Shown: positions 50,563 to 57,564 of the stretch, one piece after another
Layout of the letters: each line of letters opens with the position of its first letter
Position numbering within the stretch: the first letter of the stretch is position 1
Origin: an uncultured Flavobacteriaceae bacterium
GTDB taxonomy: Bacteria > Bacteroidota > Bacteroidia > Flavobacteriales > Flavobacteriaceae
Assembly: GCA_938092005.1 (NCBI GenBank)
Contig: CALKOU010000002.1
Location: 154,454-218,453, forward strand
DNA: 64,000 nucleotides
Reading direction: 5' to 3'
The notes under the pieces: model-generated
Databases searched by the model: none
Told to the model about the DNA's origin: nothing
Seen by the model: only the letters and a program-made list of their open reading frames with translations
Made by a program: the position numbers and the translations under genes

Positions 50563-51441
50563 ATGATTCGATTCATCATATTCGCTTTAATCTGTTCACA
50601 ACTATTACTAGCGCAAGACCCCACACCCGAACAAAATGAAGAGTGGAAAAAAGGTGGAAAAGCAACCTTACTTTTTAACCAATCCGCGTTTAGCGAGTGG
50701 GCTTCTGGTGGACAAAACAGCGTATCGCTTAGTTTTCATACAGATTATGATCTAAGTTATAAGAAAAACGGCTGGAACTGGGACACCAAATTTTTAGGTG
50801 ATTTTGGATTAACAAAACTAAGCGGCACCAAGTTTTTGCGCAAAACTAATGACCGCTTTGACTTGCAGTCTTTTTTGGGAAAAAAGTTCAGTAAGGAATG
50901 GAGCTACTCGACCGTTTTTGCTATAAAAACACAGTTTGCACGAGGATACACCTTTGGTAAAGATGATGAAGGAAATGAAACACGAAATTTACGGACGCAT
51001 TTTTTCTCTCCCGTTTATGTTCAATTAGGGGTTGGACTTTATTGGAAAAAATCTAAAAACCTTTGGGTAAACGTGGCGCCGTTTACACAACGACTTACGC
51101 TGGTAAGCAGAAAATTTACGATGGATTTAGCAGAAGGAAAAGAATATTTTGGGGTGCGTAAAGGTGATAATCACCGCTTTGAATTGGGTGCCTCCGTAAA
51201 TGCTTTTTATAAATTCTCCCCTTTAGAAAACATAACTTTAGAACAACGCTTGGGGCTCTATTCCGATTACTTAGATAAAGCTAAAAATGTGGATTTAGAC
51301 TACCAAGTAAGTGCCGAAATGAGGGTTAATGAATACATCACCACTAACCTTATCATGCAGTTTGTGTATGACGATAATGCGGTTCAACGTTTACAAGTAC
51401 GTGAAGTCTTTGGCGTTGGAGTTCGCATGGATTTGAAGTAA
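50563..51441 (+). CDS. DUF3078 outer-membrane protein, first of a tandem pair
   Basis: This 292-residue exported protein has signal peptide MIRFIIFALICSQLLLAQ. DUF3078 proteins look like outer-membrane barrels: WKKGGKATLLFNQSAFSEW and SLSFHTDYDLSYKKNGWNWD are family hallmarks, and the end FGVGVRMDLK is beta-strand-like. It follows DUF2480 by 12 bases. Its neighbour at 51515 is a clear paralog. Confidence 0.87.
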   Translation: MIRFIIFALICSQLLLAQDPTPEQNEEWKKGGKATLLFNQSAFSEWASGGQNSVSLSFHTDYDLSYKKNGWNWDTKFLGDFGLTKLSGTKFLRKTNDRFDLQSFLGKKFSKEWSYSTVFAIKTQFARGYTFGKDDEGNETRNLRTHFFSPVYVQLGVGLYWKKSKNLWVNVAPFTQRLTLVSRKFTMDLAEGKEYFGVRKGDNHRFELGASVNAFYKFSPLENITLEQRLGLYSDYLDKAKNVDLDYQVSAEMRVNEYITTNLIMQFVYDDNAVQRLQVREVFGVGVRMDLK

Positions 51442-51514: not shown

Positions 51515-52384
51515 ATGAAAAACTACTTATGGATGCTCCTTTTCTGTGGCATTTTATCTTTTGCACAAGAACCCCTAGAGACTTCAAACTGGAAAAAAAG
51601 CGGCAACGCTTCGTTATTGTTTAATCAAGCTACCTTTAGCAATTGGGTCTTAGGTGGAGAAAATAATGTTTCGCTTAATTTCTTAGCTGATTATACCCTA
51701 AACTATAAAAAAGACACCTGGACATGGGACACTACCTTTTTACTGGATTACGGACTTGCCAAAACAAGTGGTAGTTCGTTTTATAAAAAAACAAGTGACC
51801 GGTTTGAAATACAATCCTTACTCGGCAAACAATTTGCCAAGCTATGGAGTTATTCAGCGTTTTTAGGATTTAAAACGCCTTTCAGCAAAGGGTATGACTA
51901 TAGCACTGATACGAACGGAAAGGAGATCCGCATTGAAAAATCAAGCTTCTTATCACCTGCATACTTGCAGTTGGGATTTGGTCTTAGCTGGAAAGAACAC
52001 GATAATCTTTGGGTAAATTTTGCACCTATAAGTCCCCGTTTTACTTTTGTCAGCAAAACGTTTACCCAAAACTTAGCTCCCGACACCACTTATTTTGGAG
52101 TAGAAAAAGGAAAAAGCTCGCGTCTTGAGTTTGGAGGAGCCATAAATGCTTTTTGGCTTACTGAATTGCTTAAAAACGTCCGTTTTGAGCAACGCCTTGG
52201 GTTGTTTAGCAATTATCTTGACAAGCCCAAAAATGTAGATTTGGATTATCAAGCTACGCTGAATATGGAAGTCAACAAAAACCTTTCTGCCAATATTATC
52301 GTACAGCTCGTTTATGACGACAATGCGGTTCAAGAGTTACAGGTACGTGAAGTCTTTGGAATTGGAATACAAATGGCATTGTAG
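51515..52384 (+). CDS. DUF3078 outer-membrane protein, second of a tandem pair
   Basis: This 289-residue paralog of the preceding gene keeps the same order of motifs (WKKSGNASLLFNQATFSNW, DTWTWDTTFLLDYGL, LEFGGAINAFW, VREVFGIGIQMAL) after signal peptide MKNYLWMLLFCGILSFAQ. The two differ throughout, so the duplication is old. It has its own probable promoter box, which could allow separate expression. Function unknown. Confidence 0.87.
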   Translation: MKNYLWMLLFCGILSFAQEPLETSNWKKSGNASLLFNQATFSNWVLGGENNVSLNFLADYTLNYKKDTWTWDTTFLLDYGLAKTSGSSFYKKTSDRFEIQSLLGKQFAKLWSYSAFLGFKTPFSKGYDYSTDTNGKEIRIEKSSFLSPAYLQLGFGLSWKEHDNLWVNFAPISPRFTFVSKTFTQNLAPDTTYFGVEKGKSSRLEFGGAINAFWLTELLKNVRFEQRLGLFSNYLDKPKNVDLDYQATLNMEVNKNLSANIIVQLVYDDNAVQELQVREVFGIGIQMAL

Positions 52385-52415
52385 AAATCCGATGGTACCA
52401 CATCGTATCCTTGTG

Positions 52416-52432
52416 CGGCTATGCCGTTTTTT
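52416..52432 (+). terminator. Weak intrinsic terminator after the DUF3078 pair
   Basis: CGGC-TAT-GCCG followed by six T lies 32 bases after the stop codon. The 4-bp stem is short, and a second small hairpin (CGATG/CATCG, 52390-52405) precedes it. Confidence 0.35.
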
Positions 52433-52457
52433 AAGTTTTGTAATATTTTATCTAGTG

Positions 52458-54404
52458 CTATATTAAATTTACATCTGTGATCACTTCCAATAAAGCCGGA
52501 CCATCACAAGCTTTTAGTTTTTCCATTGCAGGAATTAAATCTTCTAATTTTTCTACTCGAATTCCTAATGCACCACAGTTTTGAGCATACTTTGCAAAGC
52601 TTGGATTAGAAAGGGTCGTTTGCCAAACGTCAACTTCTGCTGCTCGTTGTTCTTTGGAAATTTTTCCTAATTCTGAATTGTTTAACACAATGTGCTTAAT
52701 GTTCATGTTGTATTTAACCAACGTATTTATCTCGGCTAGATATTGACCTAATCCCCCATCTCCTGAAACCGACCAAATAGGTCTTTGATGCCCCTGGGCT
52801 GCCCATGCTCCCATGGCTGCTGGCAATGCAAAGCCTATAGAACCTAAGTAACCTGACATTAAAATGGCTTGATGTTTTGGTTCAAAATAACGTCCAAAAG
52901 AGTAGGTATTATTGCCTACATCAACAGCAATAACTGCATTTTCTGGGATTACTTTATTCATGGCATCAAAAACGGCAATGGAACTCAACCCATTTCCGCA
53001 ATCCTTTAGTCGGCTCTCTTTTTCTTCTTTCCAAAGACTCCATCGGTTATCAATTTCAGCTCTTTGATTTGTGGTGTTGGTCTTTCCTTGTGTTTGAGAT
53101 TTTAATAGCTGTACCGTTTCCGAAATTTCGCCCCATAGCGCAACGTCCACTTTATGGAATTTACTTAACGCCATAGGGTCAACATCAACTTGAATGATGG
53201 GTTTTTTGGGTGTTATTCCCGTATGGTTAGAAAACGATGCCCCAAAAACCATAAGCAAATCACTCTCGTTCATAAACCAAGAAGCTATGGGCGTTCCGCT
53301 TCGTCCTAACACCCCGCAGCCTAGCGGATGATTATCCGCTATCAGTCCTTTCCCCTTAAATGTTGTGATAACGGGGCAGTCTAAACTTTCGGCATACGAA
53401 ATGATGGCCTCCATCTCAAAACGTGCACCATGACCAACAATGATAACAGGTCTTTTCGCCTTTTTTATCAAGTTCGTAGCTTCTTCAAGCATTTCTTTCG
53501 GAGGCGAGATATTAAATGGCGTAATTCTATTTTTTGGTGTTTGCGATTTGGCATTATCTGGTTTTTCTTTAAATGCAACTTCGTCAGGAAATGTTAGGTG
53601 AACTACATCTCGTTTAATTAAGGCTGTTTTTACAGCCAACGACATCAGCTCGCTATGATTTGAGTTGAGGTGGACAGCGTGATTAAACTGAGACACGCTA
53701 TCAAATGCCTTTACTAAATCTACTTCTTGAAAAGCACCAGTGCCAACAACTTGTGTGTTCACTTGACCTGAAAGTGCCAGAAGTGGTGCTCTATCTACTT
53801 TGGCATCCCACATACCTGTGAACATATTGGTAGCTCCTGGGCCGGCAATGCCAAAACAAGCAGCAGGTTTGCCCGTTAGCTTGGCATATCCCGACGCAGC
53901 GAAAGCTGCAGCACCCTCGTGTCTAACTCCAAAATAGTGAAGGTTACCTTTTTTCTCTTGCCGTCGCATAGCATCAGCGACACCCAAATTGCTATGGCCT
54001 ACCATACCAAAAACGGTATTAACTCCCCAATTGACCATAGTCTCAACCATGACATCAGAGATGGTGTCTTTGTGGGGTTCTTCTTCGGGGATGGCTACAT
54101 AAATTGAATTATCTTCTTCTTTAACTTCAAACGTATTAACACCATCGTCAAAACCACCTGGAGGGATACCCGTGCAGGGGTCAAAATCCCAACCGTGCCA
54201 TGGACAACGTAGCATGCCGTTTTCAATAGACCCTTCTCCCAGCGGTCCGCCTTGGTGTGGACATCTGTTGTCTAAAGCAGAAAATTTACCATTGTAATGC
54301 GTCAAGCAAATTCCCTGATGACCAGCAGTTACTGTTTTAACCCTTCCTTCAGGTAATATTTTTTTATGGGTTAGTACTTTGTGCCAAATGCTATTTTTAC
54401 TCAT
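52458..54404 (-). CDS. Rieske [2Fe-2S] domain fused to ThDP-dependent oxidase-like enzyme
   Basis: This 648-residue fusion has two parts. Residues 1-108 are a Rieske domain with ligands Cys48, His50, Cys67 and His70 (CPHQGG, CPWHGW). Residues ~112-648 are a full ThDP enzyme of the acetolactate synthase/pyruvate oxidase family. The cofactor-activating Glu163 lies in RHEGAAAFAASGYAKL, a Rossmann-like middle domain follows, and the ThDP-Mg motif starts at GDG (548-550) and ends at NN (575-576), 27 residues on. Like PoxB it has the GHSNLGVADAMRR and FGIAGPGATNM segments. No signal peptide. The fused cluster suggests electrons from the keto-acid decarboxylation leave through the Rieske centre rather than to oxygen. 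It is the last gene of a five-gene operon and overlaps the previous one by 4 bases. Confidence 0.88.
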   Translation of the reverse strand: MSKNSIWHKVLTHKKILPEGRVKTVTAGHQGICLTHYNGKFSALDNRCPHQGGPLGEGSIENGMLRCPWHGWDFDPCTGIPPGGFDDGVNTFEVKEEDNSIYVAIPEEEPHKDTISDVMVETMVNWGVNTVFGMVGHSNLGVADAMRRQEKKGNLHYFGVRHEGAAAFAASGYAKLTGKPAACFGIAGPGATNMFTGMWDAKVDRAPLLALSGQVNTQVVGTGAFQEVDLVKAFDSVSQFNHAVHLNSNHSELMSLAVKTALIKRDVVHLTFPDEVAFKEKPDNAKSQTPKNRITPFNISPPKEMLEEATNLIKKAKRPVIIVGHGARFEMEAIISYAESLDCPVITTFKGKGLIADNHPLGCGVLGRSGTPIASWFMNESDLLMVFGASFSNHTGITPKKPIIQVDVDPMALSKFHKVDVALWGEISETVQLLKSQTQGKTNTTNQRAEIDNRWSLWKEEKESRLKDCGNGLSSIAVFDAMNKVIPENAVIAVDVGNNTYSFGRYFEPKHQAILMSGYLGSIGFALPAAMGAWAAQGHQRPIWSVSGDGGLGQYLAEINTLVKYNMNIKHIVLNNSELGKISKEQRAAEVDVWQTTLSNPSFAKYAQNCGALGIRVEKLEDLIPAMEKLKACDGPALLEVITDVNLI

Positions 54405-54775
54405 AATGAAAGGTTTTGTTGTCTGATTTTGATGGCCTTAAACGAATAAACAATTAGTAAAAAAATAGATGCGCCAATACTCAATCCGCCAAGGACTAAA
54501 ACGCACTTTGATAGCAGACTAAACTGAGGCGCTAATGCGGCTATAATTCCTGAAAAGAGGAACTTAAAAAGCCCTGCATATTGTAGTGCTGCTGCCCAAC
54601 TGAGTTTTTTAAGTTGATGGAGTTTCAGTTCAATTATCCGCTTATACTTTTTTTCTTTTGTTGTTTTAAGACTGGTAATTTCTGCGTTCAGGCTCAATAA
54701 GATATTAGACGTTGACAAAATAATTAAGCCAACCCCTGGAATAATTGTAAAAGGGATATACCATTCCATACCCAT
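54401..54775 (-). CDS. Small membrane protein (DUF2721-like) in the Rieske-ThDP operon
   Basis: This 124-residue protein has three or so hydrophobic segments: YIPFTIIPGVGLIILSTSNI (6-25), a middle stretch around YAGLFKFLFSGIIAAL (about 66-81), and CVLVLGGLSIGASIFLLIVY near 91-110. Between the first two lies a charged helix (KTTKEKKYKRIIELKLHQLK). The layout resembles DUF2721 proteins, though I am not certain. Its last 4 bases overlap the Rieske-ThDP gene and its first base is shared with the stop of the DUF1622 gene. Confidence 0.75.
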   Translation of the reverse strand: MGMEWYIPFTIIPGVGLIILSTSNILLSLNAEITSLKTTKEKKYKRIIELKLHQLKKLSWAAALQYAGLFKFLFSGIIAALAPQFSLLSKCVLVLGGLSIGASIFLLIVYSFKAIKIRQQNLSL

Positions 54776-55125
54776 TAATCTTCCTTTTCTGAGTGAATCT
54801 CTTTCATCTCATTACCTAAAAAGTATCCTATTCCTGTTCGCAAAACAATCATTACAGACAACTCAATAAGCTTTTCTGTGTTTATATCCATTATGGTGTG
54901 AATGATGTCAGAGGCGATCAAAAAGTCTAATGCCAAAAGAATATAAATCCCCAATTGACAGCGCAGCAATTGTAGTTTTTGAATGGGAACATTAAACCAA
55001 TTCTTTACAAGTTCTTGGCGTAAAAACTTAATTAGGAGTTTTGCAAAACCATAGACCAAAATGGAAACACCTATTATATCTATTCCTTCAGAAATAGCTA
55101 CAAAAAAGGATTTAATTGCATTCAT
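54775..55125 (-). CDS. DUF1622 membrane protein in the Rieske-ThDP operon
   Basis: This 116-residue membrane protein fits DUF1622: IDIIGVSILVYGFAKLLIKF near the start, LRCQLGIYILLALDFLIASD in the middle (LxLALxFLIAxDII is the family mark), and VMIVLRTGIGYFLGNEMKEI near the end. Three spans are predicted. Function unknown. The gene overlaps its upstream neighbour by 4 bases (ATGA). Confidence 0.82.
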   Translation of the reverse strand: MNAIKSFFVAISEGIDIIGVSILVYGFAKLLIKFLRQELVKNWFNVPIQKLQLLRCQLGIYILLALDFLIASDIIHTIMDINTEKLIELSVMIVLRTGIGYFLGNEMKEIHSEKED

Positions 55126-55406
55126 AGGTTTGAATATTTTGTTTTACACGTAGGACACTCAAAGCTGTTATTGCCTTTTTTCAATCTGATTCCATCTAGG
55201 TGCGTTATTACAAAGTCTTGAATAAATGCATGTTTTGCCTGGTGATTATTTACATCTATCTGCTGATCTTTGTACATTGTCCTAATTTGGTTATCATATT
55301 TCTGATTCCCCCAACAATTAGGACAATATCCTACTGGAGGTTTCCTTTTGTTTTTTTTACTTGAGTTAGACAACAGTGTTCCTATGTAACTAAGCACAAG
55401 CATCAT
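55122..55406 (-). CDS. Zinc-ribbon-like protein in the Rieske-ThDP operon
   Basis: This 94-residue protein has a CPNC pair (in VGYCPNCWGNQ) and a second CPTC pair close to the C-terminus (FECPTCKTKY), together a likely four-Cys zinc or iron site. The first ~15 residues are hydrophobic. The frame is open to 55478, but ATG at 55406 comes one base after the stop of the reductase gene and has AAAAGG before it, so I chose it; the longer form would overlap the upstream gene by 71 bases. Family not recognised. Confidence 0.72.
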   Translation of the reverse strand: MMLVLSYIGTLLSNSSKKNKRKPPVGYCPNCWGNQKYDNQIRTMYKDQQIDVNNHQAKHAFIQDFVITHLDGIRLKKGNNSFECPTCKTKYSNL

Positions 55407-55407
55407 A

Positions 55408-56166
55408 TTACCTTTTATGCTCTGGGCTGCTAAATCCTGCTTGGCAACCGGCTTGCCATTGATCGGGTAAGTTTCCATAAGCAGGCACTCCGCCTTGGTC
55501 TTTTAGCATGCGTGCTAAGTGCAAGCAATTCCACACCAAAAAGCTTGTGTTGCGGTTTGTAAAGTCATTTTCAGGTCCACCCGAACCTTGATCTCTATAT
55601 GATGGCCCTGGGCCTGCCTCACCCATCCAGCCGGCATCTGCTTGAGGTGGCACCGTATAGCCAATATGTGACAGTGAAAACAAAATGTTCATGGCACAAT
55701 GCTTTACACCATCTTCATTTCCTGTGATAAGCGTTGCGCCAACTTTTCCATAATCACGGTATTGTCCTTTGTCATTGAATTGGTGTGTATAGCCATACAT
55801 CCGTTCTAACGTTCTGTTACAAACAGAAGATTTTTCACCCAGCCATACAGACGTACACAAAATTAATATGTCGCAAGCATCCACCTCGCGCTGAATGATG
55901 GGCCAATCGTCTTTATCCCACTCGGCTGTTTCTGACATGTCTAGCCCCAAGCCTGCAGGAATGTCATAGTCCACCGGCCTGATTACTTTTGTAGAAGCCC
56001 CAACAGACTCAAATACCATTTGGGCTTTTTCAATTAATCCTTCTGTGTGTGAAAGCACAGGGGTTCGGTTTAAGGTACAATTAAGAAACAACACCTTTAA
56101 GTCGTCATAACGAGCTGGTGGGTTTTCACAGTGTTTCTTGGTTAAGTCTTGAAGTTGTTTACTCAT
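55408..56166 (-). CDS. Flavodoxin-family / NADPH-dependent FMN reductase-like protein
   Basis: This 252-residue protein has a flavodoxin-like fold: LKVLFLNCTLNRTPVLSHTE provides the first strand and phosphate loop, then ILILCTSVWLGEKSSVC, VGATLITGNEDGVKHCAMNI and PQADAGWMGEAGPGPSY. These match a conserved bacterial flavodoxin/NADPH-dependent oxidoreductase group. It is the first gene of the operon that ends in the Rieske-ThDP enzyme, so it could shuttle electrons to or from it. A GC-rich palindrome lies 19 bases upstream. Confidence 0.88.
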   Translation of the reverse strand: MSKQLQDLTKKHCENPPARYDDLKVLFLNCTLNRTPVLSHTEGLIEKAQMVFESVGASTKVIRPVDYDIPAGLGLDMSETAEWDKDDWPIIQREVDACDILILCTSVWLGEKSSVCNRTLERMYGYTHQFNDKGQYRDYGKVGATLITGNEDGVKHCAMNILFSLSHIGYTVPPQADAGWMGEAGPGPSYRDQGSGGPENDFTNRNTSFLVWNCLHLARMLKDQGGVPAYGNLPDQWQAGCQAGFSSPEHKR

Positions 56167-56184
56167 GGTTTTTACGTTTTAAAG

Positions 56185-56198
56185 TTGGGGTGCCCCAA
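56185..56198. promoter_or_regulatory. GC-rich palindrome upstream of the Rieske-ThDP operon
   Basis: TTGGGG-TG-CCCCAA is a perfect inverted repeat 19 bases before the first start codon of the minus-strand operon. It could be an operator or an mRNA leader hairpin. No Bacteroidota -7 box was found in the 183-base gap to hflX. Confidence 0.4.
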
Positions 56199-56349
56199 AC
56201 GTTCATTATCAATTTATTAATGCGCAACTACGCTGAACAGCAATATGCCGTTCATGGCAAATCCCAAAAAGTCTTAAAAAAAGCTAGAAAAATCTTAGTT
56301 TGAAGAACAGATTTGGGGTTTGTTCACTGCTAATATAACAAAAAATATT

Positions 56350-57564
56350 TTACTCTTCTTCTACTTCAATCTCTGGATAGAGAAAGTGGTTGTAGGGAAA
56401 TCGCGTGATGTGTTGCTCTCGTACTTTTTGATATACACGGTTTCGGAAGTGTTCCATGTTTGTTTTTTTAGCAGCCGAAATAAATACTGCATCGCCTTGC
56501 GTCTTGGCCATCCACGTTTCTTTCCACTCGTCTAGGCTGTAGTGTTCACTACTGCGCTCAATCATCAAATCGGTTTCGTCAAATGCCTCGGGGGTATAGG
56601 CGTCAATTTTATTAAACACCATCAGCGTAGGTTTGTCTTGTACCTTAAGCTCAGCCAATAGTTCATTTACAGACGCAATATGCGATTCAAACTGCGGGTG
56701 TGCAATATCAACCACATGTAATAGCAAATCGGCCTCGTGCACTTCGTCAAGGGTACTTTTAAAGCTTTCTACCAACTGAGTAGGCAGTTTCCGAATAAAG
56801 CCAACAGTATCAGACAACAAAAAAGGCAGGTTGCCAACGACTACCTTTCGCACAGTCGTGTCGAGCGTAGCAAAGAGCTTGTTTTCTGCAAACACATCGC
56901 TTTTACTAAGCACATTCATTAGCGTAGACTTTCCCACATTGGTATAACCGACAAGTGCTACACGAATGAGGGCACCCCGATTACCACGTTGGGTAGCCAT
57001 TTGTCTATCAATGGTTTTTAATTTCTTTTTAAGTAGTGATATTTTGTCACGTACAATACGGCGGTCTGTTTCAATTTCGGTTTCTCCAGGTCCACGCATC
57101 CCGATACCTCCACGCTGACGCTCCAAGTGCGTCCATAACCCTTTGAGTCGGGGCAACAAGTACTGATATTGTGCCAATTCCACTTGTGTGCGGGCATAAC
57201 TGGTTTTGGCACGCTGCGCAAAAATGTCTAAAATAAGCCCCGTGCGATCTAAAATCTTACATTTTAATAGCTCTTCAATATTGCTTTGTTGGGCGGGTGT
57301 AAGTTCATCATCAAAAACCACAGTGCTGATATCGTGTGTTTTCACATAGGCTTGAACATCTTCCATTTTCCCACTTCCAATAAAGGTTTTGGGATGTGGC
57401 GTTTCTAATTTTTGAGTAAAGCGTTTGAGTACTTTTCCACCTGCAGTTAGGGTTAAAAAAGCAAGCTCGTCCATATAGTCGCTTAGCTGTTGTGCGCTTT
57501 GCTCTTGGTTTATAATTCCAACCAATACGGCGTATTCGTACTGATGCTTTTTTTGTTCAATCAT
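56350..57564 (-). CDS. hflX: GTPase HflX
   Basis: HflX is a ribosome-binding GTPase that splits stalled ribosomes. The 404-residue protein has the N-terminal HflX domain (GKVLKRFTQK, GSGKMEDVQAYV), the linker GGIGMRGPGETEIETDRR and the G domain: G1 GYTNVGKSTLMN (about 206-217), G3 DTVGFIRKLP, G4 NKID, G5 ISAAK. Length is normal. It overlaps the end of the LpxH-like gene by 8 bases. Confidence 0.95.
   Translation of the reverse strand: MIEQKKHQYEYAVLVGIINQEQSAQQLSDYMDELAFLTLTAGGKVLKRFTQKLETPHPKTFIGSGKMEDVQAYVKTHDISTVVFDDELTPAQQSNIEELLKCKILDRTGLILDIFAQRAKTSYARTQVELAQYQYLLPRLKGLWTHLERQRGGIGMRGPGETEIETDRRIVRDKISLLKKKLKTIDRQMATQRGNRGALIRVALVGYTNVGKSTLMNVLSKSDVFAENKLFATLDTTVRKVVVGNLPFLLSDTVGFIRKLPTQLVESFKSTLDEVHEADLLLHVVDIAHPQFESHIASVNELLAELKVQDKPTLMVFNKIDAYTPEAFDETDLMIERSSEHYSLDEWKETWMAKTQGDAVFISAAKKTNMEHFRNRVYQKVREQHITRFPYNHFLYPEIEVEEE

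Follow-up and report, generated by a model that had tools for sequence, protein, structure and literature searches.

A Rieske domain fused to a pyruvate-oxidase-like enzyme, and its mutually exclusive flavin-family companions, at a five-gene operon of an uncultured Flavobacteriaceae bacterium

An uncultured Flavobacteriaceae bacterium (GenBank assembly GCA_938092005.1, 1.62 Mb, 83.6% complete) carries on contig CALKOU010000002.1 an operon of five minus-strand open reading frames (ORFs), one of which encodes a Rieske [2Fe-2S] domain fused to a pyruvate-oxidase-like thiamine diphosphate (ThDP) enzyme. This fusion, called RT in the following, is the subject of the present analysis. The stretch analysed, referred to as the window, comprises 64,000 nucleotides (positions 154,454 to 218,453 of the contig), and the operon occupies its positions 52458..56166. 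The junctions between the genes are, in order, a 1-base gap, a 4-base overlap, a 1-base overlap and a 4-base overlap, exactly the layout that a previous reading made from the sequence alone (the sequence-only reading) had described, and its calls of a Rieske–ThDP enzyme fusion, a flavodoxin-like protein and a DUF1622 protein are likewise borne out by Pfam. For the second gene the ORF list places the start earlier, within the flavodoxin-like gene, and the start at 55406 was used instead. The five genes are the following:

55408..56166, minus strand: FLD, 252 residues, flavodoxin-like / NADPH-dependent flavin mononucleotide (FMN) reductase family (PF03358 FMN_red, E 5e-7)
55122..55406, minus strand: four-Cys protein (CPNC...CPTC; C28, C31, C84, C87), 94 residues, a recurrent companion of FLD or of RG (introduced below)
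54775..55125, minus strand: DUF1622 small membrane protein, 116 residues (PF07784, E 1.9e-17)
54401..54775, minus strand: DUF2721-like small membrane protein, 124 residues (PF11026, E 2.3e-4, sub-threshold)
52458..54404, minus strand: RT, 648 residues, Rieske [2Fe-2S] domain (residues 8-79) and pyruvate-oxidase-like ThDP enzyme (residues ~112-648), assigned by Pfam, phmmer, tree, AF2 and Foldseek

When RT is considered from the point of view of its domains, the Rieske part matches PF00355 (E 5e-16) with 58.8 bits against a Pfam cut-off of 20.3, and the ThDP part matches PF02776 (E 1e-34), PF00205 (E 1e-33) and PF02775 (E 1e-30). The Rieske ligands C48, H50, C67 and H70 (CxH...CxxH) are invariant among 48 aligned fusions, and the RT of the window has the catalytic ThDP residue Glu163 as well as the GDG and NN motifs, one or the other of which is altered in some rows of the alignment (a single Winogradskyella sequence and those from haloarchaea and Mycobacteroides). 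The fusions were aligned with PoxB, IlvI, Gcl and Oxc of E. coli, two proteins annotated as pyruvate oxidases and another nine ThDP enzymes of Bacteroidota. Glu585 of RT, again invariant in the 48 fusions, aligns with E483 of the L. plantarum pyruvate oxidase (LpPOX) and with the glutamate that follows the NN motif in E. coli PoxB (EcPoxB). The GMVxQWQ segment of acetolactate synthases is absent from RT, which has a GHSN loop of its own, and the RT rows end without the C-terminal membrane tail of PoxB, the E. coli protein running 40 residues further.

Among NCBIfam models, RT scores best with the pyruvate oxidase PRK08611 (407 bits, under the cut-off of 742), while the acetolactate synthase TIGR00118 (308 bits, cut-off 538) and another pyruvate oxidase model, PRK09124 (303 bits, cut-off 792), also remain under their cut-offs. 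Its closest PDB sequences are EcPoxB (phmmer E 1.8e-64) and LpPOX. A quick tree of 27 rows, which carries a long-branch warning, shows RT as one clade (starred value of 100) beside pyruvate oxidase/PoxB (SH-aLRT 81) and apart from the acetolactate synthases. The AF2 model (pLDDT 87.4, pTM 0.85) finds pyruvate oxidases as its top 12 matches in Foldseek, followed by acetohydroxyacid synthase with a comparable E-value; in VIA-align, covering residues 109-648 only, many ThDP enzymes were tied (pyruvate oxidase, acetolactate synthases, lyases). A plain acetolactate synthase, a possibility raised with the sequence-only reading, was rejected in view of the active-site segment, the model scores and the tree, and the PDB and Foldseek matches agree. 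These results support a pyruvate-oxidase-like assignment for the ThDP part, with binding of flavin adenine dinucleotide (FAD) predicted from homology.

It is nevertheless important to stress how RT differs from known systems. With the pyruvate oxidases (E. coli PoxB, L. plantarum POX, C. glutamicum PQO), its closest relatives by sequence, tree and Foldseek, it shares the ThDP fold and residues and the Glu after NN, but it has an N-terminal Rieske domain, no PoxB tail, Lys581 in place of a phenylalanine, scores that miss the NCBIfam cut-offs and a tie to RG or FLD. Acetolactate (acetohydroxyacid) synthases belong to the same superfamily and fold and share some database names with RT, from which they are set apart by the GMVxQWQ segment and by a separate branch. 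The Rieske part finds its best PDB match in CarAc (1vck, E 1e-11), one of the Rieske-type dioxygenase ferredoxins, in which the domain serves an oxygenase, whereas in RT it is fused to a ThDP enzyme.

The sequence-only reading had proposed looking for the fusion in other genomes, and RT-type fusions were found in Bacteroidota, Shewanella, an acidobacterial metagenome-assembled genome (MAG) and haloarchaeal and Mycobacteroides plasmids. Full-length fusions are present in 11 of 395 Bacteroidota genomes (own genome included) at 58-100% identity, the next matches being unfused and at most 34% identical, and in a large protein set the best 120 of 8000 scored proteins all have both the Rieske and the ThDP domains. 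From at least 557 relatives in GTDB genomes, 80 fusion loci were kept, all from Bacteroidota by title save Shewanella hanedai and one Pyrinomonadaceae MAG. Five plasmids encode a fusion at 99-100% coverage, four of them haloarchaeal (57-59% identity) and one from Mycobacteroides (52.5%); among the best 15 of 530 plasmid matches listed, the next one is unfused and 36% identical. Some database names label these proteins 'acetolactate synthase-like' or 'thiamine pyrophosphate-binding'. The results support RT as a real, widespread family.

For the neighbours, up to 10 kb around each of the 80 fusion genes was surveyed, and the resulting counts are lower bounds, because many contigs are shorter than this span. 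A Rieske-glutamate-synthase-like protein (RG) is found near the fusion at 57 of 80 loci and FLD at eight, and the two never occur together. At otherwise matching loci one takes the slot of the other: the order CRP-c11-RG-c13-U250-DUF2721-RT (L051) has its counterpart in CRP-c11-FLD-c13-U250-DUF2721-RT (L048), and RG-NHE-RT-U71 (L082) in FLD-NHE-RT-U71 (L089, L094).

The same exclusion is seen in whole genomes. Of the 80 loci, 50 were sent to a genome-wide partner search, which covered 48 loci in 47 genomes. A window-type FLD (86-89% identical) occurs in six of these 47, always at the fusion locus, and a 48-52% paralog in ten; RG, at 71% identity or more, occurs in 39, none of them with a window-type FLD. 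With the own genome added, the 48 fusion genomes comprise 39 with RG, seven with FLD, none with both, one with a Rieske-less RG (Shewanella) and one with neither (Joostella), giving a Fisher value of 4.9e-7. In a sample of 299 genomes of the family (cut-offs E 1e-120 for FLD and E 1e-150 for fusion and RG), the fusion was present in 28, full RG in 34 and FLD in 13, with two more genomes having a Rieske-less RG only; RG and FLD were together in none of the 299. The 28 fusion genomes divide into 20 with RG, seven with FLD and one with neither, so that 27 have a partner (Fisher value 1.3e-24). Presence does not always mean adjacency, since fusion and partner lie on different contigs for FLD in G695 and for RG in G457.

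Both Fisher values overstate independence, because genomes share history, and more weight is carried by the repeated changes between RG and FLD and by the plasmid data. Mapped onto the tree of RT, the RG/FLD label requires seven changes, three of them forced by well supported branches, and it is only weakly clustered (shuffled mean 8.6-8.7 changes; 18-20 of 500 shuffles as low). Among 72,556 plasmid records, full-length RG (E 1e-50) was found on three, all of them haloarchaeal fusion carriers, at 1-18 kb from the fusion. No match to RG was obtained for the fourth haloarchaeal fusion plasmid (Haloferax larsenii), nor one to FLD among the best 25 of 174, and on the Mycobacteroides plasmid an FLD (54.5%) and a cation:proton antiporter lie close to the fusion. 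RG was not found in the 83.6% complete genome of the window. Because FLD takes the slot of RG and neither occurs with the other, FLD can be regarded as a specific companion of RT, which upholds the partnership suggested by the sequence-only reading, with RG, a predicted FMN protein, as the alternative occupant.

FLD passes the PF03358 cut-off of 24 with 29.8 bits, and its closest solved relative is 5mji/5mld, a 'BRAMP domain protein' (E 2.5e-37) whose 5mji entry we take to be RosB. RosB makes amino-flavin from FMN. FLD is only 36% identical to an annotated RosB and is linked to RT, and it was not accepted as RosB itself. RG, which is known here from the relatives only, resembles the FMN domain of glutamate synthase: one representative has a Glu_synthase domain (PF01645, E 1.5e-86), and RG keeps C451-x5-C457-x4-C462, which we take to be the 3Fe-4S spacing of glutamate synthase, so that RG too is a predicted redox protein. 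It differs from glutamate synthase in its N-terminal Rieske domain, and Pfam gave no glutaminase domain match for the representative.

Beyond the partners, the genes near the fusion are a Na+/H+ exchanger (46 of 80), U250, a 250-residue protein without assigned role (45), DUF2721 (31; at 25 of these loci it immediately precedes the fusion gene, the arrangement of the window), the Ferric_reduct-Rieske membrane protein FRR, in which His is conserved (28), and a Crp/Fnr-type regulator (24). Rarer are a K+-channel-type protein (15), a Pycsar-effector-type transmembrane (TM) protein (12), YjeF_N (7), malic enzyme (6), a glutaredoxin-disulfide-reductase fusion (5) and an OsmC-like protein (3); the OsmC-, TauE- and DegP-like neighbours are presumed identities, named from their consensus. 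The exchanger, the Crp/Fnr-type regulator, the glutaredoxin-disulfide-reductase fusion and the OsmC-like protein suggest a redox- or ion-stress setting. FRR, which joins a haem-type Ferric_reduct membrane domain to a Rieske domain and was not found in the 83.6% complete genome of the window, is likely a membrane redox partner. It belongs to a four-gene module, U71-U135-FRR-U264 (L046 12162-13600, L064 13620-14414), in which U264 shows the conserved motif DPKCYFGvMKPG...SCA..C and gave no match in either Pfam or PDB. The Pycsar-effector-type protein (PF18967; L057 13212-13850) recurs downstream of the Na+/H+ exchanger.

Within the genus, the fusion is present in only one of 17 genomes, the own one, and the gap between hflX and a DUF3078-type gene in which it lies (window 52384-56350; L154, L155) is a variable insertion site. 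At 10 of 14 hflX loci (own included), hflX has a DUF3078-type gene, or part of such a gene, as its immediate neighbour; the remaining loci hold the five genes of the window, the first four of these (G409), a CBS-type and two PPK2-like proteins (G404; identities that we assume from the sequences) or two other genes (G407). The G409 copies of FLD, the four-Cys gene, DUF1622 and DUF2721 are 90-96% identical to those of the window (DUF1622 96%), and behind them (L153, G409:C74, 8150-8240) 26 bases from the start of the fusion gene are left, joined to what lies beyond that gene in the window; GCACAA marks both ends. Because this remnant joins the downstream sequence between GCACAA repeats, the fusion was deleted in G409, unless assembly lost it, once the operon was in place, and all five genes were together before that deletion. 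The patchy spread of the operon suggests horizontal transfer.

Electrons from 2-keto-acid oxidation are known to leave by way of quinone (PoxB) or ferredoxin (PFOR). For RT, the explanation to which we give an even chance is that of a 2-keto-acid oxidase passing electrons through its Rieske centre to an FMN-family partner, FLD here and RG in most relatives. By homology, RT would oxidise a keto acid with ThDP and FAD, the FAD being bound and then reduced by the ThDP intermediate. The reduced FAD would deliver electrons to the Rieske centre one at a time, as is suggested by the fusion itself and by the lack of a PoxB-type membrane tail, and the RG/FLD exclusion points to the predicted FMN-binding partner as the next acceptor. 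RG and FLD would be interchangeable because both would supply an FMN redox site, and FRR would form a membrane branch where present. Pyruvate or a close 2-keto acid may be the substrate, a malic-enzyme gene being among the neighbours at six of 80 loci, and an accessory role is assumed for the four-Cys, DUF1622 and DUF2721 proteins.

Two observations are among the main doubts about this scheme. The claim of the sequence-only reading that all cofactor residues are present stands for the Rieske ligands, Glu163, GDG and NN, but not for the phenylalanine of pyruvate oxidases (Phe in EcPoxB, F479 in LpPOX), which is replaced by Lys581 in all 48 fusions, and FAD binding is a prediction by homology; F479 and E483 belong to the active-site segment of LpPOX. 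Moreover, RG occurs without the fusion in 14 and FLD in six of the 299 family genomes. With 27 of 28 fusion genomes having RG or FLD and the partners also living alone, the fusion therefore nearly requires a partner, while the partners do not require the fusion.

Lys581 is also one of the points in favour of the foremost rival: RT might be a non-redox carboligase or decarboxylase, acetolactate-synthase-like and with a structural flavin, whose Rieske domain senses the redox state and switches the enzyme. The match to TIGR00118 and a fold comparison in which pyruvate oxidase ranks level with acetolactate synthases and lyases fit such an enzyme, but pyruvate oxidases give the best model, PDB and Foldseek matches, the Glu of pyruvate oxidases is present in RT and GMVxQWQ is not, the tree sets it apart from acetolactate synthase, and its constant partners are flavin-family proteins, so we consider this rather unlikely. 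Somewhat less probable still is that RG and FLD share a chemistry of glutamate/2-oxoglutarate amine transfer at FMN, with RT supplying or consuming a keto acid and a modified cofactor or amino compound, not electron transfer, as the outcome. The Glu_synthase domain of the RG representative and the likeness of FLD to 5mji would accord with it, whereas the 36% identity to annotated RosB and the lack of a glutaminase domain match in the RG representative speak against it, as does the fact that no roseoflavin-pathway gene is named in the annotated neighbourhoods, no search having been aimed at the remaining genes of that pathway.

The model of the sequence-only reading, in which all five genes form one dedicated pathway and electrons are relayed further by the two small membrane proteins, appears very improbable. 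The tight gene overlaps, DUF2721 directly upstream of RT at 25 loci and the union of all five genes before the G409 deletion would be expected from it, but the exact set is local and the fusion mostly occurs without these neighbours, an outcome that the sequence-only reading had itself named as refuting: near it, FLD and the four-Cys gene are each found at eight of 80 loci, DUF1622 at none and DUF2721 at 31, so that the five genes were rejected as a conserved unit, and four of them persist without RT in G409. Among 32 DUF2721 sequences no His or Cys is conserved at 90%, which leaves the proposed membrane module weak and makes it unlikely that either of the small membrane proteins is an electron carrier.

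A wider proposal can be made, albeit tentatively and with less confidence: besides quinone and ferredoxin, a further electron route may exist in the form of a mobile two-part system of bacteria and haloarchaea, in which RT feeds an exchangeable FMN partner (RG or FLD), with an optional Rieske-haem membrane protein, and powers stress-linked reduction. Three kinds of protein from one cluster each carry a fused Rieske domain, namely a ThDP oxidase-like enzyme, a glutamate-synthase-like FMN-type protein and a haem-type membrane protein, and one of them (RG) is replaceable by an unrelated flavoprotein (FLD). Were electrons to run as proposed, Rieske centres would act as a plug-in connector from central carbon oxidation to exchangeable flavoproteins, both in bacteria and in archaea. 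Those proteins that currently bear the name 'thiamine pyrophosphate-binding' or 'acetolactate synthase-like' would thereby gain a testable function, with RT plus RG or FLD as the protein pair. No description of a Rieske-ThDP fusion or of this gene set was found in the open-licence PubMed Central literature, a search outside which most subscription journals lie; in the passages that deal with them, PMC6037941 treats pyruvate oxidase and Rieske complexes apart.

Relatives of FLD also occur in other settings. In two genomes of Maribacter (L195 5919-8871, L196 4682-7634) a paralog (49-51%) immediately precedes a PoxB-type enzyme and is itself preceded by a 138-residue membrane-type protein. Members of the family stand with DUF427, an OsmC-like protein and genes that we take to be of the EgtB/EgtD (ergothioneine-synthesis) type in L197 and L198, and with EgtB/EgtD-type genes in L211; on plasmids, three records have FLD relatives beside annotated peroxiredoxin, OsmC or EgtB/EgtD genes, and others are without such genes. 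The family thus has a loose link with redox stress and, in at least one further case, with pyruvate oxidase.

Of the accessory proteins, the four-Cys protein has C28, C31, C84 and C87 invariant in nine sequences, and its gene adjoins FLD in G578, a genome without the fusion. It reached no Pfam family cut-off, and a rubredoxin-like carrier was not taken up, the AF2 model being poor (pLDDT 57, pTM 0.38). The DUF1622 protein, with two TM-like stretches and few relatives in the material compared, scores 63.4 bits (cut-off 24). The DUF2721-like protein has three such stretches and 21.5 bits, below the Pfam cut-off of 28.3, which its same-position homolog in L045 exceeds (35.4 bits, E 1e-8).

An Rfam scan of the operon region gave nothing at the gathering score, and promoter-like matches at the operon (8) were not in excess over shuffled sequence (10.1). 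An inverted repeat, TTGGGG-CA-CCCCAA, lies at window 56185-56198, some 20 bases ahead of the start codon of FLD, and is not kept in G409. On the other side of the operon, two related outer-membrane-type genes, presumably DUF3078, stand in tandem (window 50563-51441 and 51515-52384; ~50% identical by cross-hits), and several relatives have only one of this pair beside hflX.

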